From positions 1-39,004 of the IMG/VR virus record IMGVR_UViG_3300036791_000971: a stretch of 39,004 nucleotides of DNA; one strand, written 5' to 3'. The position numbers were made by a program, and so were the translations under genes. Positions 454-39,004 of the stretch are shown in pieces (the first letter of the stretch is position 1; every line of letters starts with the position of its first letter). The notes beneath the pieces were generated by a model. That model saw nothing but the letters and a program-made list of their open reading frames with translations, ran no database searches and was not told the DNA's origin. The DNA comes from a virus.

Positions 454-927
454 CTATTGCTGCTGGGAGAAGAGGTCCAGCGGCACGCTCTCGGCCTTGG
501 GCACCGGCGCTGCGTACTGCGCCGTGTAGAGCTTCGGAGCGTTGAGCCCGCCACGCTGTTCGCCCATGCCGGTCAGCGCCACCGCCAGCCTGCCTCCGAC
601 CTCGAAGTTCTTCGCCCCGGCTTCCTTGCACGCCGACACGATGGCGTCGAGCATGGCTTGGCCCTTGCCGCTGGCGACCTTGAAGTTCGGCCCACGCTTG
701 GCCCACAGGCTCATCGTCTCGCCGCTCTCGACCTCGACGTTGATGATCCACAGGTTCATGGGATCGCCGCTGTCGAAGAACCGCGGCTTGCCGGTCGTGG
801 CATCGGTCTGCTGCTGTTGTTTGAACCCGGTGATCGTGCCACTGATCGTGTCGCCGATCTTCTCGAACTTGGCTGCCGGGGAGTTCCCGCCGCCGAGTTC
901 CTCGATGCTGATGCTGTCGCTGCTCAT
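454..927 (-). CDS. Probable single-stranded DNA-binding protein
   Basis: This 157-aa protein begins MSSDSISIEELGGG. Its beta-rich core (FEKIGDTISGTITGFKQQQQ, then FFDSGDPMNLWIINVEV) resembles the OB-fold SSB-like proteins of actinophages. It would coat single-stranded DNA during replication and recombination. Its start overlaps the stop of the exonuclease gene by 4 bp (ATGA), so the two are translationally coupled. The neighbours (Cas4-like exonuclease, RusA, primase-helicase) support a role in DNA metabolism. The C-terminus (DLFSQQQ) lacks the usual acidic SSB tip, so family assignment rests on overall pattern and context. Confidence 0.6.
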   Translation of the reverse strand: MSSDSISIEELGGGNSPAAKFEKIGDTISGTITGFKQQQQTDATTGKPRFFDSGDPMNLWIINVEVESGETMSLWAKRGPNFKVASGKGQAMLDAIVSACKEAGAKNFEVGGRLAVALTGMGEQRGGLNAPKLYTAQYAAPVPKAESVPLDLFSQQQ

Positions 928-2213
928 GCGCTGTCTCCTGTCTGTTGGTTGTTGTTGGTGGGGAAGAGGCGGAGGACCCGGGCGTCCTCGGTCTGCGGCA
1001 TCTGCGGCTCGGGATCGGGGAACGCCATCTTGTGCCGTCCCTCGACCTGCTCGACGAGGGCCGCGACGACGCCGAACTGCTCCTCGCTCAGCCCGTCACG
1101 CGGCGGTGGCGTGTTGGCGGGCCAGCGGGCAACGAGGTCCATGCGGGCGCGTGGATGCTGCCCGATGGTGTCGATCCGCTTTTGGAGCCAGGCCAGGAGT
1201 TCGACCCACAGCCACGCCTCGGCCTGCTGGAGCGCCTCATACGGCGGCTCAGGCCGGTCAGCCCCGGGAGGCTCTGCCGGGCTCTCCGGGGCTTCTGGCG
1301 GCTGCTGACGGGCATCCAGCGACGCCGCCAACTGCGTTTCGAGCACGCTCAGCGGCTTGAACGGCTGGGACTGCCGCCATCCCCGCGCCCACAGACTCAC
1401 GTCGAACGCCCGCCACCCGGCGTCGAGGTCAACCAGGAACAGGTCGAGCATGCCGCTCCCGGCGTTGAGCCACAGGATCAGGCCCACGTGCTGCTCGACG
1501 GCGGGCATGGGCAAGCGCTGATCCTCGGACCCGTCTGGATCGGCACCCTGCACGTAGACGTGATCGGCCCGGGCATAGGCGGCGAGCTGCACGGCGATGG
1601 GCTGCCAGGAGTAGTCGAGGCTCGCCCCGGTCTTGAGGTCCGCGATCAGCGGCAGGTCGTACCCCGGCACATGGGCAAGCCGGTCGAACGTCCCCGCGAC
1701 CTTGTGCTTGTCGAGGATCACCGTCGTCTCGATGTAGGCCGGGTCGATGGTCACGTGGGCATTGTCGAGACCGGCCTTGTACGCCGCCAGGTCACGCCGC
1801 GTCTCGTCGGTCAGGTGCTCGGGCACCCCGCCGCCGTCGAAGATGGCGCTGATCGAGTGGAGCGCTGATCCGGTCTCACGCCGGTCGTCGGCGCCGCCCG
1901 CGGTTGCGCTCTCGGTCACCAGCGTCTTGCACGCCGCCTTGTGCTCGTCACCCCCGTACCACGGGTCACCGCCGGACTCGGCGAGCAGCGCTTCCCAACG
2001 CGCTCGGAGCGCCCGGCTCTTGATGATGCCGATGGCGGTCATCGCCCCTTTCCAGTTCGCCAGTCCGCCGCCCGTGTCGAGCGACTTCGCCACCGTCGTG
2101 ACCCTCGTGTAGCCCTGCGGCTTGCCTCCGCCCGGTGGCACGACCTTGTAGCGGCCCCACTGATCGCGCCGGGGCTCAGGCCGGGCTAGCTGGTTGAGCG
2201 GGATGGTGGTCAT
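924..2213 (-). CDS. PD-(D/E)XK exonuclease, Cas4/RecB-like
   Basis: This 429-aa protein carries the RecB-family nuclease motifs in order: H119 in GSALH, E162, D177 (GTFDRL), D192-L-K194 in LIADLKTG, and Q209 with Y213 in the QLAAYARA helix. Residues 1-110 include YTRVTTVAKSLD, typical of phage Cas4-like exonucleases. Such enzymes resect DNA ends for recombination or recombination-dependent replication, probably working with the neighbouring SSB-like and RusA proteins. The C-terminal 130 residues are proline-rich and then helical, without a recognised domain. It overlaps the SSB-like gene by 4 bp and the coiled-coil gene by 4 bp. Confidence 0.8.
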   Translation of the reverse strand: MTTIPLNQLARPEPRRDQWGRYKVVPPGGGKPQGYTRVTTVAKSLDTGGGLANWKGAMTAIGIIKSRALRARWEALLAESGGDPWYGGDEHKAACKTLVTESATAGGADDRRETGSALHSISAIFDGGGVPEHLTDETRRDLAAYKAGLDNAHVTIDPAYIETTVILDKHKVAGTFDRLAHVPGYDLPLIADLKTGASLDYSWQPIAVQLAAYARADHVYVQGADPDGSEDQRLPMPAVEQHVGLILWLNAGSGMLDLFLVDLDAGWRAFDVSLWARGWRQSQPFKPLSVLETQLAASLDARQQPPEAPESPAEPPGADRPEPPYEALQQAEAWLWVELLAWLQKRIDTIGQHPRARMDLVARWPANTPPPRDGLSEEQFGVVAALVEQVEGRHKMAFPDPEPQMPQTEDARVLRLFPTNNNQQTGDSA

Positions 2214-2560
2214 GTTGCCTCCTGTTCGATGACGCCACGGATCATTTCTTCGAGCGACGTGGCGCCACGGTCACGTTGCTTGCGGTCGACGCCCATGAGA
2301 ATGTCGGCGAGCGTGTCAAAGCGCTTTTGCACCGCCGCCGTGCTGTCGTCGATGGCACGTCTAAGGTTCTCTTCGTAGCGGTCAAGACCCGCCTTGACGT
2401 AGTTGGCGATCAGCTCGTCCCGGCCCTCGATGATCTCGCGTTTGATCGCTTTGAGGCTGGCTTCCAGCTCGCGCCGTTCGGCCCGCAGATCGGTGAGCGC
2501 CTCGTGCGCTTCACGGATGACACGGCGTAACGCCGCCATCTCGTCGGGCACACTCGTCAT
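2210..2560 (-). CDS. Small coiled-coil protein in the recombination operon
   Basis: This 116-aa protein (MTSVPDEMAALRRVIREAH) is almost entirely charged heptad-like helix (RAERRELEASLKAIKREII), so a coiled coil is likely. I recognise no family. The ATG at 2560 is chosen because GGAGGTCCA sits directly upstream and ATGA overlaps the RusA stop. An in-frame extension upstream has poor protein character. Its place between RusA and the exonuclease suggests a structural or accessory role in DNA recombination. That is inference only. Confidence 0.7.
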   Translation of the reverse strand: MTSVPDEMAALRRVIREAHEALTDLRAERRELEASLKAIKREIIEGRDELIANYVKAGLDRYEENLRRAIDDSTAAVQKRFDTLADILMGVDRKQRDRGATSLEEMIRGVIEQEAT

Positions 2561-3012
2561 TGGACCTCCGTCACTTGGATAAGCACGCCAGGGTTGGCGT
2601 TCGTGTAGCGCTTGGCAGCGATGATCGACACCACCTGTGCATCGTCCCGCCACAGCCCGGCGTCGGTGATCGCATCGCACACGCAGCGCACTAACTTGTC
2701 GAGGTCCGGCATAACAGACGGGTGTGTCGGAGCGCTTGCCTTGACCACGCCCGCATTGCGCCCGGTGCCGTAGTGGGCACCCGGTCGAGGGAGATCGAAG
2801 CCCAGCCGCAGTTCAATCGGGCCGATCATCTGTTCGATCACGGCGTCAGCAACGGCTTGTTGGACCTGACCCCGCCACTGATAGACGCCAGCGGGGTACT
2901 TGACGCCGTACCCCTTGCCGTTGCGGTTCGGGATAACGCGCATCGAGCCCTGCGGGCGGGGCAGACCTCGAACGTCGATGCTGATGCCCGGGGGTGCCGC
3001 CGTAGCGGTCAC
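2557..3012 (-). CDS. rusA: RusA-family Holliday junction resolvase
   Basis: The 151-aa product matches the RusA pattern: an N-terminal strand with PRPQGS, then the catalytic stretch PDLDKLVRCVCDAITDAGL (D103, D105, K106) and WRDDAQVV (D123/D124). RusA dimers cut four-way DNA junctions, here probably clearing recombination or replication intermediates before packaging. It starts with GTG at 3012, overlapping the XRE stop (GTGA), and is followed by the coiled-coil gene with a 4-bp overlap. Length is normal for the family. Confidence 0.88.
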   Translation of the reverse strand: MTATAAPPGISIDVRGLPRPQGSMRVIPNRNGKGYGVKYPAGVYQWRGQVQQAVADAVIEQMIGPIELRLGFDLPRPGAHYGTGRNAGVVKASAPTHPSVMPDLDKLVRCVCDAITDAGLWRDDAQVVSIIAAKRYTNANPGVLIQVTEVQ

Positions 3013-3236
3013 GCGGCGAAGTCGCTGGAGTGGTAGCGGAAGCCCTCTCGGCTCAGAACCTTGGCGAGTTTGGTCCGCATGTCCCAGCGGGGGAAGTGGG
3101 TGCCCCGTTCCCAGCGGCTCACCGCCACGTGGTTCACGCCGATCAGAACTGCCAGCTCTGCCTGCGTCAAGCCCCGGGCCTGGCGGCCCTCACGAATCCT
3201 CTCCCCGACGCTCGCCGTCAAAAATGCAGTAGTCAT
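3009..3236 (-). CDS. XRE-family helix-turn-helix regulator
   Basis: This 75-aa protein has a complete HTH at about residues 11-60 (IREGRQARGLTQAELAVLIG then VNHVAVSRWERGTHFP). It leads the leftward recombination and replication operon, so it probably regulates early genes and may repress itself. It has no C-terminal dimerisation or cleavage domain, unlike CI-type repressors. The ATG lies 6 bases after a -10-like box with no ribosome site, which suggests a leaderless transcript. A palindrome lies about 130 bp upstream. Whether this protein binds it is not known. Confidence 0.85.
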   Translation of the reverse strand: MTTAFLTASVGERIREGRQARGLTQAELAVLIGVNHVAVSRWERGTHFPRWDMRTKLAKVLSREGFRYHSSDFAA

Positions 3237-3242
3237 AGCGCG

Positions 3243-3271
3243 ATCATGGCACCGTCGCTGCTAGTTGGCAA
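3243..3271 (-). promoter_or_regulatory. Putative leaderless promoter of the XRE/early operon
   Basis: Read leftward, TTGCCA (3266-3271; 5 of 6 to the -35 consensus) is 17 bases from CATGAT (3243-3248). The start codon follows 6 bases later. Transcription would therefore begin at or next to the ATG, a common arrangement in actinobacteria. Supported by spacing and sequence only. Confidence 0.5.
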
Positions 3272-3308
3272 GTGACTTTGCAACCGGCAGCGAAACCGGG
3301 GGAGAACC

Positions 3309-3328
3309 TGTGGACAACGCGTGGATAA
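3309..3328 (-). other. Pair of DnaA-box-like sites (candidate replication origin)
   Basis: On the minus strand, TTGTCCACA (3309-3317) matches the actinobacterial DnaA box exactly. TTATCCACG (3320-3328) matches the general TTATCCACA box at 8 of 9 bases. The two start 11 bp apart in the same orientation, on one DNA face. They lie in the 189-bp gap between divergent genes and upstream of the replication operon, a fitting place for an origin. Confidence 0.5.
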
Positions 3329-3368
3329 CCTGTTGACGACCACTGACATACCGCGCCGGCTAGTGACA

Positions 3369-3386
3369 GTGCTAGACGTCTAGCAC
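3369..3386. promoter_or_regulatory. Operator-like palindrome, copy 1
   Basis: A perfect 18-bp palindrome, GTGCTAGACGTCTAGCAC. The 14-bp core GCTAGACGTCTAGC recurs at 28668-28681 and 36031-36044. It sits between the divergent XRE gene and a small rightward ORF, so it could control either. The shared core near three regulator genes points to one regulon. Confidence 0.7.
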
Positions 3387-3425
3387 CCTCCGACCTCGAG
3401 ACGTTCGAGCGGCTAGTCTGACGGC

Positions 3426-3551
3426 ATGAAACGGCTATTGCGAAGATGGCGAGACCATAAGCGGCGCCCCTACGACTGGGCCGTCGAGTGCCCCGAGCTG
3501 CACAAGCCGGACCCCGGGTTCAGGGTTGTGTGGCCCGAGGACGCCGGGTGA
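3426..3551 (+). CDS. Small basic hypothetical protein (41 aa)
   Basis: The ORF encodes MKRLLRRWRDHKRRPYDWAV and ends VVWPEDAG; no family is recognised. There is no ribosome site, but TAGTCT (3414-3419), a TANNNT-type -10 box, ends 6 bases before the ATG, so a leaderless message is possible. It is the only rightward gene-like frame with a normal start between 1 and 28 kb. It diverges from the XRE gene and shares the palindrome-containing gap. Codon use is GC-rich. Its place beside a regulator suggests an early small protein, but it could be spurious. Confidence 0.45.
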   Translation: MKRLLRRWRDHKRRPYDWAVECPELHKPDPGFRVVWPEDAG

Positions 3552-3552
3552 G

Positions 3553-3568
3553 GCCGGTCAGCCCCGGC
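3553..3568. terminator. Short hairpin between convergent genes
   Basis: GCCGG-TCAGCC-CCGGC forms a 5-bp stem between the end of the small rightward ORF and the end of the leftward lysis operon. It contains one of nine copies of the 13-mer CCGGTCAGCCCCG. It may act as a weak two-way terminator. Confidence 0.4.
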
Positions 3569-3912
3569 TAGGGCAGCGTGGGTTCCTCGCCCGCGGCGGG
3601 GAACTCGGCGGTGGCGTCTTGGTCTTGGTCGTAGAGCGGCACGCTCTGCGGTGCCCTCAAGGTGGACTCGGCGGGGTAACGGTTGACGAGCTGCGTGGCC
3701 CCCGGTTCGACGGGCCCCTCACGCGTCGAGCCCATGTACGTCGCCACCGCTCCGACAACCGCGCCCAGCGCCGTCGCCAGCAGCGTCGACTCCGCCTCGC
3801 TGATGTGCCCGGCAGTCCCATGATCGAGTTCGGACAGCGCGAGCACGACCAAAGTGATCGCTGCCCCCAGCGCCAGGATCAAAGCGATGACGGCGCGCCA
3901 TTCGATCTTCAC
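3568..3912 (-). CDS. Holin-like two-TM membrane protein
   Basis: This 114-aa protein has hydrophobic helices at about residues 7-27 and 44-61, a short loop between them and a long hydrophilic, acidic, proline-containing C-terminal tail. That layout, and its place just after the amidase and a second two-TM protein, fits a holin or holin partner that opens the cytoplasmic membrane at lysis. It is the last gene of the leftward late operon and overlaps its upstream neighbour by 4 bp (ATGA). Holins cannot be assigned by sequence alone. Confidence 0.6.
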   Translation of the reverse strand: MKIEWRAVIALILALGAAITLVVLALSELDHGTAGHISEAESTLLATALGAVVGAVATYMGSTREGPVEPGATQLVNRYPAESTLRAPQSVPLYDQDQDATAEFPAAGEEPTLP

Positions 3913-7624: not shown

Positions 7625-9051
7625 GAATCAACTTGCAGGAGAAGATGCAGGGACAAGTACGTCCGTTCCGGGGCGCCGACACGCATGCCCATTACTTGAG
7701 CGCAGTTGTGCCACGCCCAGACGTTGAGACGGTCGCCTGCTTGCAACAGAATGTCGTCGCTGCCACTTATCTGATGCTCTGAGGCCCAGTTCACCGCACT
7801 CCACCATCGCCGAGCCCCATTGGCGGCACCGTTCACTCGAACATCGAGCAACATGGCTTGTGCGGGAACTGACGGATTGGCCTGGCCGATCTGCCAGCCG
7901 ACCGATGCGCTCATGTTGTAGACACCTGTTACCGGCACAACAAGTGCAGTGAGCCCGGTCGAGGGATAGTCCGCCTGGGTAACGAAGCCGTTGTGGAGAT
8001 AGTCCGGGCTGAGTTTGATCCCGGTCCACAATGAGGGCGAGACGCCGGTGTCCACGGTTGCTTTCATGCGAGCTATGGCTGGCGGAGCGAGAGGTGCTGC
8101 CGGTGCTGGCGCGCTGGTGTCGACCCACAGAAAGCCCGACGGCGGCACGATGTTCGGAGCGGACGCGTTCGGCGGCGCATCTGCGACCTCGACGTACATG
8201 CCCGCGGTCGCCGGGCCAGCAGGGCCGGCCGCGCCCGGTGCGCCTGCCGTACCCGCGGGTCCAGCCGGACCCGTCGCTCCAGTTGGACCCGTGGGCCCAG
8301 CCGCCCCCGCCGCTCCGGGCGGGCCGGGAACGGTCGAGTCAGCACCGGGAGGCCCAGTCGGGCCAGCAGCGCCAGCGGGACCCGTGGGGCCGGGAACGGT
8401 TGAAGCCGCCCCCGTCGCACCCGTATCGCCCTTGTCACCCTTGGGCCCCGCTGGGCCTGCCGGACCCGGCACCGTCGAGTCGGCACCCGTCGCTCCCGTT
8501 GGGCCGGGCGGCCCGGTCGCTCCTGTCGCTCCAGGCGGCCCAGGAACCGTCGAGGCGGCGCCCTGCGGGCCTTGGGGTCCTGCCGGGCCTGTCGGACCCG
8601 GAACGGTCGACGCGGGCCCCGTAGCGCCCGTCGCGCCGGTGTCACCCGTGTCACCCTTGGGGCCAGCGGGACCCGTGGGGCCGGGAACGGTCGAGTCGGC
8701 ACCCGTGCTGCCGGTGTCGCCCTTGGGGCCAGCGGGACCCGTGGGACCGGGAACCGTTGAGACAGGGCCGGTCGGTCCAGTGGCGCCGGTCGTCCCGGTG
8801 TCGCCCTTGTCGCCCTTGGGCCCAGTGGGACCGGGAACGCCAGGCGGACCAGGAACCGTCGAGTCTGCGCCAGGCGGACCTGCGGGTCCGGGCGGGCCAC
8901 CAGGCTCACCGTCCGCACCGGGCGGACCCGGCGGCCCCTGCGGACCAGGCGGGCCGGTCGTCGAGGTCGTGACGTTCATGGGCGCCGCTGTATCGATGGC
9001 GACGTTCGGCGGTGCGAACTCCTCGGGCGTTACGTCGTGCTCGTCAGCCAT
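7621..9051 (-). CDS. Collagen-like tail fibre with C1q-like C-terminal domain
   Basis: A 476-aa protein with a head of about 35 residues, then roughly 240 residues of Gly-X-Y triplets. These are arranged in near-repeats ([19 protein letters not shown], with ASTVPGP blocks). The C-terminal region of about 160 residues looks like a C1q/TNF jelly roll ([36 protein letters not shown]). Collagen-like phage fibres trimerise through the helix and present the globular head to the host. The repeat DNA also creates a long antisense open frame, which is not a gene. Start ATG 9051 overlaps the preceding gene by 8 bp. Confidence 0.85.
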
Positions 9052-12784: not shown

Positions 12785-13704
12785 GCCAGGAACGCGTCCT
12801 GCCAGCGGGCCTCGACGAGCGTGTGCGGCGACGCGCTGCTGCCGGTCAGTTCGAGCACGTTCGTCCACGGCACCGGGTAGATCAGCGGCCATTGCGTCGC
12901 GTCGAACTCGATCTCGGAGAACACCGACTGCGCCGGGTCGCCGTTGCGGTTCGCCGTGCGGGCTTTGCAGTCCACGTCGACCCACTCGCCCGAACCGATG
13001 ACGAGAGTCGAGCCGAACGCCACCTGGGCCTGGACCGGGGTGCGATCCGGTGCCACACCGCTGAGCCGCACGACCGGCTGCGTAATCGGGCCATAGATGC
13101 GCAGGAGCGGCGAGACGGGGAGGTCGCCTCGGCTGACCGGCGCACCCGGCACGGAGGGACTGCCGACGACCGTGCTGTAATCCCGGTCAACACCGCCATA
13201 GGCCGCGAGGTCGGGCGGTTCGTAGACACGCCCACCCTGATCGTCCTCACCGACCCACGCCGACGAGACACTGATGATCGCGTTGCGAATGAGCGCGTCC
13301 GGTGCCACCCAGCTCAGTTGAAACTCCCGCTTGGACGGCACGCCCATCGGGGCCGACCAGCCGCTCGCTCGCAGCAACAGCATGCGCTCGTCGTAGCTCG
13401 CACTCTGCCGAGTGAAGTGCAGCTCGGGCCGGGCACCCGGGTTCGTGTAGCGACCGAACAGCGAGACGATGTCGTCGAGCGGCAGCGTGCCATCCGGCAC
13501 CGCCGTGATGCTCGCCGTCACCACCCGCCCGCCAAAGTACGCCGTCACGTCGTCGATGCCATGCTGGATCGGCGCGTTGTTCGTAACCTCTCGAATGTCG
13601 GGGTAGCCAAGGTCCAGCTCCGTGCAGACCCATCCCCGCTCCACGTCATCGAGCGGCGTCGACATGCCGTCGAGGACGAGCCATGCTGACCGGGTACTCG
13701 GCAT
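12781..13704 (-). CDS. Distal tail (Dit-like) protein
   Basis: A 307-aa protein immediately after the tape measure gene, where siphoviruses encode the Dit. It has an N-terminal beta region (VCTELDLGYPDIREVTNNAP, ITAVPDGTLPLDDIVSLFG) and a later galectin-like part (LLRIYGPITQPVVRL through VLELTGSS). Dit rings cap the tail tube and anchor fibres. The start overlaps the tape measure stop by one base (TAATG) and the end overlaps the Gp37-like start by 4. Confidence 0.75.
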   Translation of the reverse strand: MPSTRSAWLVLDGMSTPLDDVERGWVCTELDLGYPDIREVTNNAPIQHGIDDVTAYFGGRVVTASITAVPDGTLPLDDIVSLFGRYTNPGARPELHFTRQSASYDERMLLLRASGWSAPMGVPSKREFQLSWVAPDALIRNAIISVSSAWVGEDDQGGRVYEPPDLAAYGGVDRDYSTVVGSPSVPGAPVSRGDLPVSPLLRIYGPITQPVVRLSGVAPDRTPVQAQVAFGSTLVIGSGEWVDVDCKARTANRNGDPAQSVFSEIEFDATQWPLIYPVPWTNVLELTGSSASPHTLVEARWQDAFLA

Positions 13705-28359: not shown

Positions 28360-28427
28360 GTTCACTCCTGACGTGTTCGATGACCTACGAAGCATAGCGC
28401 ACCTAGTCCGCGATTGCTTGGCGGAGC

Positions 28428-28664
28428 AAGCCGGTCAGCCCCGTTTGCACGGCACCGCAGCTCGCCGCCGATCAACCCGAGCAGCCCCGTTTGCAGGTCC
28501 CGCACACCCCGCCCTGGATATCGCACGGGAGTCAACCCGGTCAGGCTCCCGTGGGAATCAACCCGGTCAGCCCCGTCTGCGATTCCGCCCTCTCCCGAGC
28601 GCTCGCCGCCGCACTGCGTGCGCTGGGGCCACTGCGAACCGTTCAAGCCGGTCAGCCCCGTAGG
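28428..28664 (-). repeat. Leader array of five short repeats
   Basis: Five units of the form TCAACCCGGTCAGCCCCGTTTGC (plus-strand view, split here as TCAACCCGGTCAG then CCCCGTTTGC) start near 28428, 28473, 28532, 28558 and 28642. Units 1, 4 and 5 contain the exact 13-mer CCGGTCAGCCCCG. Spacing is uneven (about 27-85 bp), so it is not a CRISPR. No gene is apparent in this stretch. It lies between the palindrome at 28667 and the first late gene, as leader DNA or RNA. Possible roles are stoperator-like sites, antitermination elements or iterons. Confidence 0.7.
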
Positions 28665-28666
28665 GG

Positions 28667-28682
28667 TGCTAGACGTCTAGCA
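28667..28682. promoter_or_regulatory. Operator-like palindrome, copy 2
   Basis: TGCTAGACGTCTAGCA, a perfect 16-bp palindrome sharing the 14-bp core with copies at 3371 and 36031. It lies upstream of the HicA/RHH genes (leftward) and overlaps the -35 of a possible rightward promoter into the structured-RNA region. Confidence 0.7.
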
Positions 28683-28699
28683 GTCCTATGTGATATTAT
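28670..28699 (+). promoter_or_regulatory. Putative rightward promoter overlapping operator
   Basis: TAGACG (28670-28675, inside the palindrome) and TATTAT (28694-28699; 5 of 6 to -10 consensus) are 18 bases apart. The region is unusually AT-rich for this genome. Transcription would start near 28706 and run into the hairpin-rich segment. A repressor on the palindrome would block the -35. Confidence 0.45.
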
Positions 28700-28727
28700 T
28701 CCCTTGAGTTTTGATCTCGCCTTGGAG

Positions 28728-28970
28728 CGCATGAGACCGCATGCGAGCGAGGGCGGAGGATTCGTGAGCCCGGAGCCCGAGAGGGCGGACGCAGAATCCT
28801 CCCCCGTTGAGCCGCCGACGCAGCGCTGAGGGTAGGACTGCCCGAGCCTTGAATGGAGCAAACTGCCGAGACACCCGGCGTGCGGATGACGTGAATCCGT
28901 GCAGCGAGTCCGTGACGTTTCCCCAGAAGTGGGGGTGCGCCCAGTGCCCAGAGGGAACCTTGTAGTTCCC
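28728..28970 (+). ncRNA. Candidate structured RNA, unknown family
   Basis: No convincing gene covers this segment, yet it holds five consecutive stems in the plus-strand RNA. They are CGCATG/CATGCG (28728-28745), a bulged 12-bp stem GGAGGATTC/GAATCCTCC (28751-28805) enclosing GCCC-GAGA-GGGC with a GNRA loop (28775-28786), GUGCGGAU/AUCCGUGC (28880-28902), CCCC/GGGG (28921-28934) and GGGAAC/GUUCCC (28953-28970). A promoter-like sequence lies just upstream. I could not match RNase P, tmRNA or introns by eye. Confidence 0.45.
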
Positions 28971-29135
28971 GTTAGCCAGTCTCTCGCCCGACGTTGTCTA
29001 TACACCGCCGCCGGACCTCGGAAAGTGCTAGTTCAAAAATGGATGCTGAGAGGGTAGACAACCCAATCGCCGCTTAATCGCGGCCCGATTTAGTTCCACG
29101 TCTACTCCCGTTAGTACGTGCGCGCCGTCGTTGAC

Positions 29136-29203
29136 GCTGAACGCTCGCTCCCCGATAGGGGGCCGAACGCTCGATTCCCGCAGGGAAGCCGAACGCTCGA
29201 TTC
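29136..29203. repeat. 26-bp tandem repeat, about 2.6 copies
   Basis: Units begin at 29136, 29162 and 29188 with GCYGAACGCTCGMTTC-like sequence. In the first two units it is followed by small inverted repeats (CCCCGATAGGGG and TTCCCGCAGGGAA). No gene covers the area. It is part of the gene-free region 28360-29528. Possible protein-binding iterons or replication slippage. Confidence 0.7.
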
Positions 29204-29204
29204 T

Positions 29205-29245
29205 GAGCGTAAGTAGGTAGAGCGTAAGTAGGTAGAGCGTAAGTA
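29205..29245. repeat. 15-bp tandem repeat, 2.7 copies
   Basis: GAGCGTAAGTAGGTA repeats exactly at 29205 and 29220, with a partial copy GAGCGTAAGTA at 29235. It directly follows the 26-bp repeat. A similar GTAAGTAAGTAAG run occurs at 37089-37101. No coding role is apparent. Confidence 0.8.
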
Positions 29246-29386
29246 AGCCGATTCGCCGCCGCAAGTAAACGGATGACACCGCGGTCCTTTCCCGCCGTCA
29301 TCCGCCGAAAAACAGAACACGGGAACTAAATCATCGAATCACTCACCTGCACGTGAGCCCGTATGCGCGCCCCAAGTAACACCGCG

Positions 29387-29458
29387 CCGACGCAGTGCAG
29401 ACCCAGTGAGCGATCCGATTCGGCAACATTCGCAAGAGTGCCGCCGAACCGGATCACT
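29387..29458 (+). repeat. Intergenic hairpin element, member 1
   Basis: It begins with CCGACGCAG (29387) and contains a long stem between 29405-29425 and 29439-29458 (AGTG, GATCCG, TTCGGCA pairing with TGCCG, GAA, CGGATC, CACT). It ends with GAACCGGATCACT. Both ends recur in the elements before the AAA+, VWA and 33824 genes, although this stem sequence differs. Here the terminator at 29479 follows at once. Confidence 0.6.
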
Positions 29459-30337: not shown

Positions 30338-30390
30338 CGGACGTGCGAGCACACAACGTGCCCGCCCGTTAATCAGAAAGGAAAGTGAGA

Positions 30391-31314
30391 ATGTCTATTC
30401 CCACTTTTGATATCAGCACCGTTCCCGACCGCGATCGGGAGCGGGTGGCAGGATTGATCCCCAACCCCGCCATCGCCGACGCCTACGTGCATCGGACGAT
30501 TAAAGGTTGGGAAGATTTTGCCATTCTCGACAAGGCGCTAGAAAAGGGCCGCAACGTCATGCTCATGGGTCCCACGGGATCGAGCAAGACAACTGTGTTC
30601 CGAGCCTACGCCGCAGCCCGCGGGTTGCCGTTTGTTGTCGTCGAATCAAACGCCGCAATGGACTACTCCGTAGTCGTCGGACGCACCATGCCCGACGAGG
30701 CCGGCGAAGTCCGCTTCATTGACGGCGATTTCACGCTCGTTGTCCGCTACGGCGGCATCGTGCTCATTGATGAGATCAACATGGCACACCCACGCGTCAC
30801 CGCCGCTCTGCACGGCGTGCTTTCCGTTATGTCACGGATGAGCGTGCCCGAAGCAGGTGAGGTTGTGCATGCGGGCCACGGCGGACACGACCACATCACC
30901 CACGATGACGGACGTGTCGAGTGCGAGGGCGAAGCCCAGCCGATTCTGTTCGGCGCCGCTTACAACCCCCGCTATCAGGGCGTCGTGCGTCTCAACGAAG
31001 CACTCAACAACCGCTTTGCCGACCCAATCGAGTGGGACTACGACCGTGCCGTTGAGGCACAACTTGTGTCGTCGTCCCGCTTGCTCGATATGGCGGCGAA
31101 CGTGCGAGCGCTCGATGAAATCCGCACACCTTGCAGCACGAACATGCTGCAAGAGTTTGAGGAGCACGTCGAGGATTTCGACATGGAAATGGCTGAGTAT
31201 TTCTTCACGATGCACTTCGCGCCAGAAGAGAGGGCGCCGATTGCACGTGCGCTCGAAGCCAACCGTGCCGCCATCGCCCGTGAGCTGAACGCGAGCGTTG
31301 CAGTCACTGCGTGA
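30391..31314 (+). CDS. CobS/MoxR-like AAA+ ATPase
   Basis: A 307-aa AAA+ protein: Walker A GPTGSSKTT (60-68), Walker B GGIVLIDEIN with D127/E128, a sensor-1 Asn in FGAAYNPRYQG, and an arginine-finger region LNEALNNRFADPIEWDYD. It lacks extra domains. This is the MoxR/CobS type that powers VWA partners to remodel or insert metal into targets; the next gene encodes such a partner. ATG 30391 follows AAAGGAAAGTGAGA. CobS-like genes occur in other phages, but the target is unknown. Cobalamin synthesis is not implied. Confidence 0.85.
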   Translation: MSIPTFDISTVPDRDRERVAGLIPNPAIADAYVHRTIKGWEDFAILDKALEKGRNVMLMGPTGSSKTTVFRAYAAARGLPFVVVESNAAMDYSVVVGRTMPDEAGEVRFIDGDFTLVVRYGGIVLIDEINMAHPRVTAALHGVLSVMSRMSVPEAGEVVHAGHGGHDHITHDDGRVECEGEAQPILFGAAYNPRYQGVVRLNEALNNRFADPIEWDYDRAVEAQLVSSSRLLDMAANVRALDEIRTPCSTNMLQEFEEHVEDFDMEMAEYFFTMHFAPEERAPIARALEANRAAIARELNASVAVTA

Positions 31315-31319
31315 GCAGC

Positions 31320-31413
31320 CCGACGCAGCTCCGTCCCCGTCTTAAACACGGGGACGGGGCTGAACCGGATTACTCACAAGTATCCCCGGACGGCGGATCA
31401 ACCGATCCGCCGT
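31320..31413 (+). repeat. Intergenic hairpin element, member 3, plus second hairpin
   Basis: CCGACGCAG, then a 14-bp stem (AGCTCCGTCCCCGT 31327-31340 with ACGGGGACGGGGCT 31348-31361), then GAACCGGATTACTC. A separate 10-bp perfect hairpin follows (ACGGCGGATC 31390-31399 with GATCCGCCGT 31404-31413), just before the ribosome site of the VWA gene. It is nearly identical in plan to members at 30285 and 33749. Confidence 0.75.
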
Positions 31414-31439
31414 TACTCACTGAAAGGAAAGTGAGAAAC

Positions 31440-33293
31440 ATGACACCCATTAACGGTGTGCGTCGTGGGTCCACCCACGTTGACTTAGACGAGTTGACGT
31501 GGGACCCCGCCGACGTGCTGCGGCTAGCCCGTCTCGCTCGCGAGATTCGGCTGACCGATCAAATCCTAACGCCGGACATGGACACAGTATCTGTCGTCGA
31601 GGATGGCCCAGCGCCAGCCTGGACAACGCTTGAGGGCGATCACGTTACGTTCGCCGCCAAAAAGATGCCGCCTCCAAACAGTCCGATCAACGTTGCGATT
31701 TGGCTCGGCACCAACGCTCACGAACTTGGGCATGTTCTGTTCACTCCCCGAACGGGCTCGCGTTTACTCGCCCGCCTGTTCGACGCGGACAGAACGTTTA
31801 TGCCCGGATTGGCGAAGCTGCACAACATCGTTGAGGATCAACGCGAGGAGCGTTTGCTCATCGCCCGATTCGCGCCGTGGCGTGCCTACTTGATAGGCGC
31901 GCTGTCGCACCATCTCGTCGTGGACAGTGAGTCCGCATGGCTTTTGCTTTGCGGACGCACGTGGCTCCCCGATGCGATGCGTGCCGATGCGCGTGCAAAG
32001 TTCGTGACGACCCGCAGCGAGGCAATCGCCGCCAAGGTCGCAACGCTGATAGGAAACTACCAGCGCCTCACGGACCCGGGTGAGAGCGAGCATGACGAAG
32101 CGTTCGCCATCCTTGACGAACTGTGGAACATCTTCTGCGACAAGCTGCCGCAGATTCCCACAGGTTGCACCACCGTCATCAGCGACGGCGACCCCGACAC
32201 GGATTCGCCCGAAGCAAGCGACACGCCACCCGCCGCCGACGAGCAATCGCCGCAAGCGGACAGCGACGCGAGCGAGGGCGACGATGGACAGGGCGAGCCC
32301 GCCGCTGACAAACAGGGTGACTCGGACGGAAACTCCGCCGGAGACGCTGACGCGAAAGCTGACGCGCCGACGAGCGGAGAAAGCCGGACGAACAGCACGC
32401 CGCCGTCAACGTCAACGCCGAGCAACGTCAACGACCCGAAGCAAGTCCGCGAGGACCTGCGGAAAGCCGCCGAGGATGCTCTACGCAATGACAAGGATGC
32501 GCGGCGCGACCTGGACAACGTGTTAGACGCACTGCGGCAATCGTCGCATCGCGACGGAGTCCAGGGCGAGGTCCCGCTTGGCGAGTTCAAAGAGCCGACC
32601 GACGCGGCCCGCAAACTTCATCACGAAGTTGGCGACGCGTTGCTCGACCTGAAAGACGAAACCGAGCCGGGGTGGCAACGGAGAACAGACAGCGGACGTT
32701 TGAACACCCGCCGTTTGCTCACGTCAAACGCCCCGTATGACGAGCTGTTCGACCGATTCCAGCCGGGGGAAATGGATGCCACCGATTTTGAGGTCGCACT
32801 GTTGCTCGACACATCGAGCAGCATGCGCCGCTACGTCGAGGCATTAGCGGAGGCAACGTGGGCCGTTCAGCAAGCATCGGACGACCTCGAAGCCGCCGTG
32901 ACGATCATCACCTGGAACGGTGACGAGCACCGCGTCGTTACAGAGTCGGGGCAACGCCCCGATGGACGCGTGTTCGTCCCTGCCGCTTGGGGAGGAACTG
33001 ATCCCGTCTCAGCATTGAACGAGACGTTCAGACTCCTTGCCGACTCGCAGGCCCGTAACCGCATCATGCTCATTCTCACGGACGGGCAATGGAGCAACGA
33101 GGAGCAAGCCGCCAGAGTGATCGCCGCCATGAACGAAGTGGGAATCACCACTGCGTTCGCGTTCCTCGGAGCCGAAAACCTGTTTGACGGCAACTCGCAC
33201 GGATGCGCCGTGTCGGAGCGGATCGACAGACCCCAGGGTCTCGCGTTGATGTTCCGCCGCATCGCCGCCGAGCGAATCAAGGCCGCTTTCTAA
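31440..33293 (+). CDS. CobT-like VWA protein with HELGH metallopeptidase-like domain
   Basis: A 617-aa protein. The N-terminal domain has H94-E-L-G-H98, a zinc metallopeptidase motif, and HNIVEDQREERLL (128-140), which could give a third acidic ligand; this pair is typical of CobT-like and other MoxR-partner proteins. Residues 245-335 are an acidic, disordered linker. A helical region precedes the C-terminal VWA domain with a complete MIDAS: D457-x-S459-x-S461, T520 (GGTDP) and D548 (LILTDG). Start ATG 31440 has GAAAGGAAAGTGAGAA upstream. It likely works with the AAA+ neighbour. Whether the peptidase site is active is open. Confidence 0.85.
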   Translation: MTPINGVRRGSTHVDLDELTWDPADVLRLARLAREIRLTDQILTPDMDTVSVVEDGPAPAWTTLEGDHVTFAAKKMPPPNSPINVAIWLGTNAHELGHVLFTPRTGSRLLARLFDADRTFMPGLAKLHNIVEDQREERLLIARFAPWRAYLIGALSHHLVVDSESAWLLLCGRTWLPDAMRADARAKFVTTRSEAIAAKVATLIGNYQRLTDPGESEHDEAFAILDELWNIFCDKLPQIPTGCTTVISDGDPDTDSPEASDTPPAADEQSPQADSDASEGDDGQGEPAADKQGDSDGNSAGDADAKADAPTSGESRTNSTPPSTSTPSNVNDPKQVREDLRKAAEDALRNDKDARRDLDNVLDALRQSSHRDGVQGEVPLGEFKEPTDAARKLHHEVGDALLDLKDETEPGWQRRTDSGRLNTRRLLTSNAPYDELFDRFQPGEMDATDFEVALLLDTSSSMRRYVEALAEATWAVQQASDDLEAAVTIITWNGDEHRVVTESGQRPDGRVFVPAAWGGTDPVSALNETFRLLADSQARNRIMLILTDGQWSNEEQAARVIAAMNEVGITTAFAFLGAENLFDGNSHGCAVSERIDRPQGLALMFRRIAAERIKAAF

Positions 33294-35792: not shown

Positions 35793-35987
35793 TTACTTCG
35801 TCTTTGCGTACAGTTCCAGTGCAGCGATGACCGCGTCCTTGAGCGTCAAGCCCTGCTGCACGGCCTTGACGCGCACCCGGCGGTGCAGTTCAGACGGCAC
35901 CGGCACGTTGATCGCAACGACGTTCTCGTCGTCACGCTCAGCGATACGGGCCGCTCGCTTGCGTTGTGCCACTGTCGTGTTAGCCAT
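35793..35987 (-). CDS. Ribbon-helix-helix regulator
   Basis: A 64-aa protein. A basic head (TVAQRKRAARIAERDDE) is followed by an RHH core: strand NVVAINVPVPSE, helices LHRRVRVKAVQQ and LTLKDAVIAALELYAK. Such proteins bind DNA as dimers at palindromes or repeats. Its promoter carries the palindrome copy 3 in the spacer, so self-repression is a natural model. The ribosome site is weak. It heads the ASCH/HNH operon. Confidence 0.8.
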   Translation of the reverse strand: MANTTVAQRKRAARIAERDDENVVAINVPVPSELHRRVRVKAVQQGLTLKDAVIAALELYAKTK

Positions 35988-36022
35988 GCCGCCGATGATA
36001 GCGCAAAGCACACTGCGTGCGC

Positions 36023-36050
36023 GTCATACTGCTAGACGTCTAGCAGTCAG
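36023..36050 (-). promoter_or_regulatory. Promoter of RHH operon with operator palindrome (copy 3) in the spacer
   Basis: Read leftward, CTGACT (36045-36050) and TATGAC (36023-36028) are 16 bases apart. The spacer is filled by the palindrome core GCTAGACGTCTAGC; the full 20-bp palindrome ACTGCTAGACGTCTAGCAGT spans 36028-36047. The start codon lies about 29 bases after the predicted start site. A bound dimer here would block polymerase. Confidence 0.6.
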
Positions 36051-37139: not shown

Positions 37140-39004
37140 TCACTGGACTTCACCTGCGGTTTTGTCCGAGGCGCCGCCATCGGAGGACTCAGATTTGGCC
37201 CCACTGGGAACACCCATTGCGACAAGGGCTTTCTCGACTTCGTCGGGAGTCAGACCGGGCTTGCTCCAGGCAGTGCGGCGGGGGAACCCGTAGGTGCTCA
37301 CCGGCGCTCCGATGGCCTCGCGGGCCCGCTTGAGCGTGCGTTCGGAGTAGTCGCCCGCTGCCGCCGCCTTGATGTCCCGAGAGTCGACGACCGGGTTGGC
37401 GTTGAGGAAGTCGCTCAGCCAGTCCTCGGCTTCCTTTTGCTGGGAGCGGGCCTCCGTGCTGCGCCCGGCGTCGTGGAGGGCGTCGAGGATCGAGCGCTTG
37501 GAGTCACCGAGCCAACGCATCTTGCCGGTGGTGATGGGCAGCCCGTCGTCGGGGTCCTTGCCCGCCACAGCTTCGACGATGTCGAACAGCAGCGTCGGCA
37601 GGTCGGTGCGCCCCAGGTTGTTCTTGGGCTCGCCGAGCAGACGCATGCCCGGCTGTTCGGGGTCGAGCATCGTGAACAGCACGGAGCGGGCCACCGCCGC
37701 AAAGGCCCGTGACGCCATGAGCATCGTGAGCGGGTCGTTCGACGTGCCCTTGTTGACATGGATCAACCCGAGTATCGAGTAATGGCCCCGGTCGGCGGCC
37801 TCGCTCAGCGGTTCGAGCCCCTGCCGTACCTCGGCGTCCCGGTGCGTGTCAAGGGCGGCGTCGAGGCGACTGATGATGGGGTCGAGCAGGACGAGGGCGG
37901 CGTCGATGTTCACGGCGGCCTGATGCAGCCCGCCGATGTCGTAGGGCAGCGTCAACGACGCCGCCTGCCCGTCCGCCGCTGTCACCGTCAGCCGATGGAT
38001 GTGCGTGAGGTCGGCCCCCGCCACGATCAGCCTCGGGGCGATGGTGTGCTCCCACGAATCCTCGTTGGCAGCTATCACGACGCGCCTCGGCTTGCCGTGC
38101 AGCTCGCCTCCGAGCTGGCCCGTGCTGATCTTCGCCGCCAGCGTGTAGGCGAGGATCGACTTGCCGATCCCCTCCCTGCCGCCGAGCAGGGTCAGGGCAC
38201 CGAGCGGGATGCGGTCGTTCCAGAGCCAGCGCACCCGGCGAACTATGACGTTCTCGGTCGATGGCGTGTGGACCTGCCGCCCCGGCGTCGAGCTGCTCGA
38301 GCTGGGGGGTGCGGCCCCGTTCGTGGTGGTGGCCCGCTTGGCGATCTCTTTCCCGGCGATCCAGGTGGCCGCGTCGTCGACCTCGTCGCCCCTCCCCTCC
38401 CCGGCGGTGAGCTGCTCCCAAATGTCCTTGACCTGTGCCATCGCGTGCCGCAGGTCGAGCGCCTCCATGCCAAACGCCCACGAGAGTGCGTAGTGCATGG
38501 CGTCGTGACGTGACCCGGTTTTGGCAGCGGACAGCTCGTGCAGCTTCTCCCCGAACGCCTGCATGGCGGCGAAGCTGGACGTGCCGGGGCTGGCCTCGAT
38601 GAAGCGAACCGTCTCGCCCGGCGTAGCCCGGGGAGCATCGCTGAGGTTCGACGGCGTGAGCAGGGCCGTCATGGACCCCGGCAGCGGCGTCGCCGCCTTG
38701 AAGTCGCCCTCGATCCAGTGCCAACCCGCCCCCACGTGCTCGTTGCCCGGCGCGACCACCCATCCGTTGTCCGAGCGCACGTCAACGCCGGGCCAGGGCG
38801 AGCGGTTCGAGTAGAGGGCGTCGGGCGGCTTGGCGAACAGCACGTTCGCTCCGCCCGAGGGCGAACGCCAGGCCGCGGTGGGGCGCCACGTGTGCTCCCG
38901 GGCGAGGAGCTCGTAGGTCGCAGCGCCGGGCTTGCCGTCTTTCACGTCGAAGTCGAACACCCCGTGCCCGCCGGACCCGGGCACGAACGCCACGACGATC
39001 TGTG
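37140..39004 (-). CDS. Prim-pol domain fused to RepA-type (AAA_25) helicase
   Basis: The main body of a 702-aa gene that begins at 371 across the circle junction. The prim-pol part (to about 200) has D99/D101 in FDFDVKDG, SPSGGANVLF (S131-N135) and GVDVRSDNGWVVAPGNEH. The usual His of the SGG.H motif is Asn, so catalysis may be altered. After a Ser-rich linker (about 305-330) comes a RecA-like helicase: Walker A GGREGIGKS (356-364), Walker B ALVLLDP (D456), and FTMLDPEQPG. It would prime and unwind DNA for phage replication; no DNA polymerase gene is seen. The stop is at 37140. Confidence 0.88.
   Translation of the reverse strand, partial: QIVVAFVPGSGGHGVFDFDVKDGKPGAATYELLAREHTWRPTAAWRSPSGGANVLFAKPPDALYSNRSPWPGVDVRSDNGWVVAPGNEHVGAGWHWIEGDFKAATPLPGSMTALLTPSNLSDAPRATPGETVRFIEASPGTSSFAAMQAFGEKLHELSAAKTGSRHDAMHYALSWAFGMEALDLRHAMAQVKDIWEQLTAGEGRGDEVDDAATWIAGKEIAKRATTTNGAAPPSSSSSTPGRQVHTPSTENVIVRRVRWLWNDRIPLGALTLLGGREGIGKSILAYTLAAKISTGQLGGELHGKPRRVVIAANEDSWEHTIAPRLIVAGADLTHIHRLTVTAADGQAASLTLPYDIGGLHQAAVNIDAALVLLDPIISRLDAALDTHRDAEVRQGLEPLSEAADRGHYSILGLIHVNKGTSNDPLTMLMASRAFAAVARSVLFTMLDPEQPGMRLLGEPKNNLGRTDLPTLLFDIVEAVAGKDPDDGLPITTGKMRWLGDSKRSILDALHDAGRSTEARSQQKEAEDWLSDFLNANPVVDSRDIKAAAAGDYSERTLKRAREAIGAPVSTYGFPRRTAWSKPGLTPDEVEKALVAMGVPSGAKSESSDGGASDKTAGEVQ
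38878..39004. repeat. Terminal direct repeat, right copy (circular overlap)
   Basis: Identical over all 127 bases to positions 1-127. Removing one copy gives a 38,877-bp circle in which the primase-helicase gene is intact. Confidence 0.95.

Follow-up and report, generated by a model that had tools for sequence, protein, structure and literature searches.

DnaA acts as the master trigger for replication in bacteria, and tandem DnaA boxes comparable to those described here are found in the origin of plasmid P1 (oriR) and in other plasmid origins that combine DnaA boxes with iterons. In Escherichia coli, according to the available passages of PMC11317965, DnaA binds preferentially to pairs of boxes 2 or 3 bp apart, gene-regulatory targets included. 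The chromosomal origin of Streptomyces lividans contains 17 DnaA boxes (PMC4285127 and PMC3583192, in the parts accessible), and TTGTCCACA is listed as a high-affinity box for the DnaA proteins of Mycobacterium tuberculosis and Streptomyces coelicolor in the accessible part of PMC4285127. Among phages, T5 has an injection stop signal whose features include DnaA boxes, as given in the excerpts of a 2026 paper (PMC13250531).

The window considered here, i.e. the whole stretch of 39,004 nucleotides that was analysed, belongs to a virus record and is a phage genome that closes into a circle: the sequence of 1-127 recurs exactly at 38878-39004, and the unit is therefore 38877 bp. Its GC content is mostly 60-70%, and its proteins resemble those of actinobacterial phages, with exonuclease matches mainly from Mycobacterium, Streptomyces and Gordonia phages and primase-helicase matches mainly from Microbacterium and Mycobacterium phages (identity below 60% in all cases). 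The window gave no Rfam match at the gathering score and no tRNA. Little or no close DNA relative was found in the phage collection (megablast of 1-25000, blastn of 2900-3900), nor among IMG/VR sequences sought via the XRE regulator, the primase and the exonuclease. Leftward from a divergent intergenic region, the genes follow in the order XRE, RusA, a small gene, exonuclease, phrog_1911 protein and Prim-Pol/AAA_25 primase-helicase. An earlier note on this DNA had proposed that this intergenic region is a replication origin with phased DnaA boxes. Its features and those of the surrounding genes are as follows (G002 is a related contig presented below).

924-2213, minus strand: exonuclease (phrog_466) of the XRE operon, kept in G002
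2557-3012, minus strand: RusA-like Holliday junction resolvase of the XRE operon, with no counterpart in G002
3009-3236, minus strand: XRE regulator (HTH_31/HTH_3), first gene of the leftward early operon
3243-3271, minus strand: sigma-70-like XRE promoter (TTGCCA, 17 nt, CATGAT), by consensus only
3298-3306, minus strand: weaker in-phase unit TTCTCCCCC, 3 mismatches, read from the sequence
3309-3317, minus strand: DnaA box 1, TTGTCCACA, perfect match to the actinobacterial consensus TTRTCCACA
3320-3328, minus strand: DnaA box 2, TTATCCACG, 1 mismatch to TTRTCCACA, 2-bp gap from box 1
3331-3339, minus strand: weaker in-phase unit TCGTCAACA, 2 mismatches
3369-3386, no strand assigned: 18-bp perfect palindrome GTGCTAGACGTCTAGCAC, presumed operator, core repeated at 28666 and 36029
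3426-3551, plus strand: 41-aa ORF on the side of the divergent region opposite to XRE, kept in G002
37140-38993, minus strand: Prim-Pol/AAA_25 primase-helicase, its start lying across the circle junction at about window position 374

The tandem box pair

The two boxes lie at 3309-3317 and 3320-3328, on the minus strand and 11 bp apart from start to start, as the earlier note had described. They are arranged head to tail and are flanked on either side by poorer units that keep the 11-bp phase; the repeat search accordingly recovered, around the boxes, a 22-nt direct repeat in three copies with spacings of 11 and 11. This tandem pair is not a chance occurrence. Loose single boxes are at chance level in the window (12 found, 13.5 expected) and a perfect single box was present in 111 of 1000 simulated genomes; a pair as good at 11 bp occurred in none of 1000 genomes simulated with an order-2 Markov model, and a pair as good at any spacing of 9-22 bp in one of 1000.

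The pair falls within the definition of a double DnaA box (two 9-mers close to TTRTCCACA on the same strand with a gap of 2-3 bp), the gap rule being taken from the available passages of PMC11317965; a 9-mer followed by a 2-bp gap gives 11 bp, the spacing seen here. The better box is identical to the high-affinity box TTGTCCACA. A pattern for such double boxes (TTRTCCACRNGTTRTCCACA, also matched by the window, at 3309) was found in at least 120 IMG/VR stretches, versus 1 for a scrambled pattern of equal composition. Since the pair is real and non-random, its pattern is enriched, its better box is of the high-affinity type and its spacing is the preferred one, it is predicted to be a site that host DnaA probably binds.

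With the E. coli double boxes, as presented in the same passages of PMC11317965, the pair shares tandem 9-mers, a 2-bp gap, the combination of one good and one imperfect box and an intergenic location; it differs from them in lying in phage DNA, in its actinobacterial consensus and in being known from sequence alone. With the oriC of Streptomyces and Mycobacterium it shares the box TTGTCCACA (accessible parts of PMC4285127 and PMC3583192). However, chromosomal origins combine many boxes with an AT-rich unwinding element, whereas the box region has two good boxes and no such element. In contrast to origins of the P1 oriR type, neither a Rep gene nor Rep iterons were recognised next to the boxes, and a search for plasmids similar to the 40-nt box region found none that matched over 80% of the query. 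The stop signal for T5 injection is likewise a phage non-coding region with DnaA boxes, palindromes and repeats; its function is two-step DNA entry (excerpts of PMC13250531), whereas the likeness of the window lies in these sequence features only.

A possibly swapped control region

The boxes are located between the divergent XRE gene (3009-3236, minus strand) and 41-aa ORF (3426-3551, plus strand), so that the divergent setting proposed earlier is borne out; the ORF is supported by its conservation in G002 (54% over 37 aa, E 8e-11). A single sigma-70-like promoter precedes XRE and its -10 element ends 6 nt before the ATG, which makes a leaderless XRE transcript plausible. Of the leaderless promoter suggested earlier, the promoter thus has a counterpart in the sequence, and its leaderless character is plausible by consensus only. 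The operator claimed in the same region corresponds to a real operator-like palindrome (GTGCTAGACGTCTAGCAC) with near copies elsewhere: its 16-bp core TGCTAGACGTCTAGCA is present in three copies (3369-3386, 28666-28683 and 36029-36046; 0 expected), each in a control region, namely the early divergent region, the region before the late operon and that before a ribbon-helix-helix-like gene (35793-36011). The palindrome contains AGACGTCT, which we take to be a MetJ box; the ribbon-helix-helix protein encoded at 35793-36011 is therefore a possible binder and may recognize the palindrome.

A terminase query identified six relatives (70-99% identity), of which only G002, a 33114-bp contig with an 83% identical terminase, covers the box region. 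The conservation test rests on this one relative, in which the primase region is either outside the contig or without a match. G002 has kept the lysin (70%), the 41-aa gene (54%), the exonuclease (56%) and the phrog_1911 gene (49%). XRE and RusA have no match in it, the operator palindrome has no copy, and no box with at most 1 mismatch lies between its lysin and exonuclease genes; the sole loose tandem pair in G002 (2 mismatches in all) is at 13215, under the portal match. The joint absence of the boxes, of XRE and RusA and of the palindrome would be explained if the XRE control module had been exchanged as a whole. The earlier note had named the absence of the boxes from relatives as evidence against an origin, and their absence at the syntenic place of G002 does count against it: a conserved origin is disfavoured, and an acquired control element is likelier than a proven origin. 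The RusA relatives (12 loci) are too distant for a conservation test, and a primase scan of genome contigs gave one locus, from Herbiconiux solani (32% identity), without tandem boxes. A rightward gene pair encoding a MoxR-type AAA ATPase and a VWA-domain protein (window 30385-33293) is about 55% conserved in G002.

Double DnaA boxes in other phages

Locus statistics were drawn from 80 loci kept among the IMG/VR stretches (at least 120) that matched the double-box pattern. The array is outside any selected ORF (at least 60 aa) in 52 of these 80 loci, compared with 22% of 20-mers by chance. Further same-strand boxes are found within 150 bp in 50 of the 80, amounting to 133 boxes versus 6.5 expected from the background of those loci. 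Among the flanking proteins (196 of 282 scanned), Terminase_6C is the commonest family (8); AAA_25 (4), PriCT_2 (3) and HTH_3 (2) are less frequent. These counts indicate that double boxes are a real phage feature and are not confined to replication genes; with HTH_3 in only 2 of the 196 scanned proteins, the link to an XRE regulator is not general. Contamination by host oriC was considered as the source of the matched stretches and set aside: phage genes predominate among the commonest flanking families of the two flank sets (the top 25 of 39 and the top 25 of 40), and no DnaA model appears among them.

Some arrays adjoin replication genes. The primase/polymerase gene of Microbacterium phage Hendrix is immediately preceded by a perfect TTGTCCACA, accompanied at 11 bp by a weak second unit; this phage shares with the window a letter-identical TTGTCCACAGGTTCTCCCC that is intergenic and adjoins the primase. 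Its genome is otherwise unrelated to the window, and the identity over 19 nt does not reach significance on its own (E 0.6). Two IMG/VR loci (L025, L063) carry their double boxes beside genes for an AAA_25 primase/helicase. Other arrays are found elsewhere. In Arthrobacter phages BillyTP (L141) and Seahorse (L144), phased arrays of 11-12 bp lie about 100 bp or less from the right genome end; the sequence of these arrays (positions 49-92 of each locus) differs between the two phages and the 11-12 bp phase is kept. Curtobacterium phage Elener is a further named example. Escherichia phage P483 (L140, NC_028822.1 about 37256-37381) has nine boxes with at most 2 mismatches on one strand. This phage is T7-like, and many of its boxes keep a phase of 11-12 bp; they occupy non-coding DNA that precedes the large terminase gene. 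T7-like replication is not known to depend on DnaA. In one high-GC phage contig, itself among the RusA relatives (L013, 4877-5176), three perfect TTGTCCACA boxes lie between genes together with GGGTGACACC-type repeats, in a layout that resembles an origin.

Closely spaced double DnaA boxes were not found announced as a general phage element in the literature listings and passages covered. They might, though this is doubtful, constitute a widespread and little-noticed cis-element tying early transcription, replication or DNA entry to host DnaA, of which the window would be one instance, borne by a swappable XRE control module. It is this broader excess across phages that merits further work. 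If phages commonly carry the preferred double site, host DnaA would be a general handle on the start of phage genes or genomes.

Readings of the pair and a second candidate region

For the window itself, we tentatively favour a lineage-specific control element that belongs to the XRE-RusA module and would let host DnaA modulate the early promoter. Two boxes placed head to tail with a 2-bp gap would be a fit for a DnaA dimer. They precede the XRE start codon by about 70-90 bp; leaderless transcription of the leftward early/replication operon presumably begins at this codon, and the control region around the pair would hold the palindromic operator as well. The element would have been acquired together with the XRE-RusA module. 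We infer both the binding of DnaA and its effect on transcription from the early promoter; DnaA might possibly also help to open the DNA at the boxes.

The pair is probably not the conserved origin of this phage group, and origin function is less likely than the XRE-linked regulatory role. The boxes at 3.3 kb form a group of two good and two weak units. As an origin, the pair would be opened by host DnaA and the primase-helicase of the adjacent operon would be loaded there. We consider this unlikely, even though the double box adjoins the replication operon, the Prim-Pol/AAA_25 protein announced in the earlier note is indeed present, and the arrays of Hendrix, L025 and L063 are also next to primase genes. 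G002 lacks the boxes at the syntenic place, and in other genomes terminase genes are found beside double boxes more often than replication genes are. The box region has 60% GC (35-45% AT in 40-bp windows), its weakest 60 bp are only within the weakest 2% of genome windows, and no AT-rich or easily melted unwinding element was found next to the boxes, nor any iteron beside them other than the box repeat. No replication initiator was recognised among the proteins scanned, many of which are of unknown family. Cumulative GC skew, proposed earlier as a check, has no extremum at 3.3 kb and gives no origin call. Furthermore, DnaA loading would not be an obvious need, as the phage has its own helicase. 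Thus, of the suggestion that replication starts with host DnaA, the binding of DnaA is favoured by sequence, spacing and enrichment, and the origin is disfavoured by the absence in G002 and the lack of an unwinding element and of a recognised initiator. The alternative of persistence as a circular plasmid is unsupported. The claim that the phage has no integrase is correct, since tyrosine (PF00589) and serine (PF00239) recombinases were absent from the window and detected in control genomes. However, ParA-type AAA_31 has no match in the window, partition genes (ParA with ParB) were not found there and its lone ParB-like gene is in the terminase neighbourhood, so that nothing positive speaks for a plasmid state.

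The 11-bp repeat could also be the site of a phage-encoded regulator, such as XRE or another small DNA-binding protein, and merely look like DnaA boxes. This is made possible by the weaker flanking units, with at least three to four units that keep the 11-bp phase, some of them distant from the DnaA consensus, and by the adjacent XRE gene; it is nevertheless improbable, as the two units in the middle are DnaA boxes, one perfect and one with a single mismatch, separated by the gap that DnaA prefers, and the separate perfect palindrome is a natural operator candidate, which makes the boxes less likely as the XRE operator. A chance resemblance, or a DnaA decoy or relic without role in the phage cycle, would agree with the chance frequency of loose boxes, the imperfect second box and the ability of G002 to do without them, but is very unlikely given the pair's absence from all 1000 simulations and its enrichment in the collection scans.

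In addition to the regulatory element that we prefer at 3.3 kb, the genome contains a rival origin candidate:

28431-28717, no strand assigned: CCGGTCAGCCCCG-type repeat cluster with an easily melted segment

Clusters of the CCGGTCAGCCCCG core, often preceded by TCAAC or TCAAG, are upstream of the ParB-like gene in both the window (28431-28660) and G002 (7714-7989), and the second-weakest 60-bp segment of each sequence adjoins its cluster (28658 and 7579, respectively). This combination resembles iterons with an unwinding element, and the cluster at 28.4-28.7 kb, which is conserved and easier to melt than the box region, is an origin candidate at least as good as the boxes; the weak segment could be a promoter instead. 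The repeat is also dispersed, with 13 loose copies in the window and 17 in G002. The 13-nt CCGGTCAGCCCCG has 9 exact copies in the window and 17 with at most 2 mismatches, versus 4.7 expected, and its 12-nt core has 11 copies in G002 (control 0). Dispersed sites are at 1254, 3554, 12236, 13846, 19135 and 34760 in the window and at 422-1293 in G002. Candidate roles are iterons, genome-wide repressor sites or others. Among the other five terminase relatives, all short fragments, none contains the repeat core and only one (G005) has a ParB-like match (33%). The surrounding region of about 1 kb (window 28396-29405), located between divergent operons, contains few convincing ORFs and has easily melted segments, and tandem repeats of 26 and 15 nt are present at 29139-29245.
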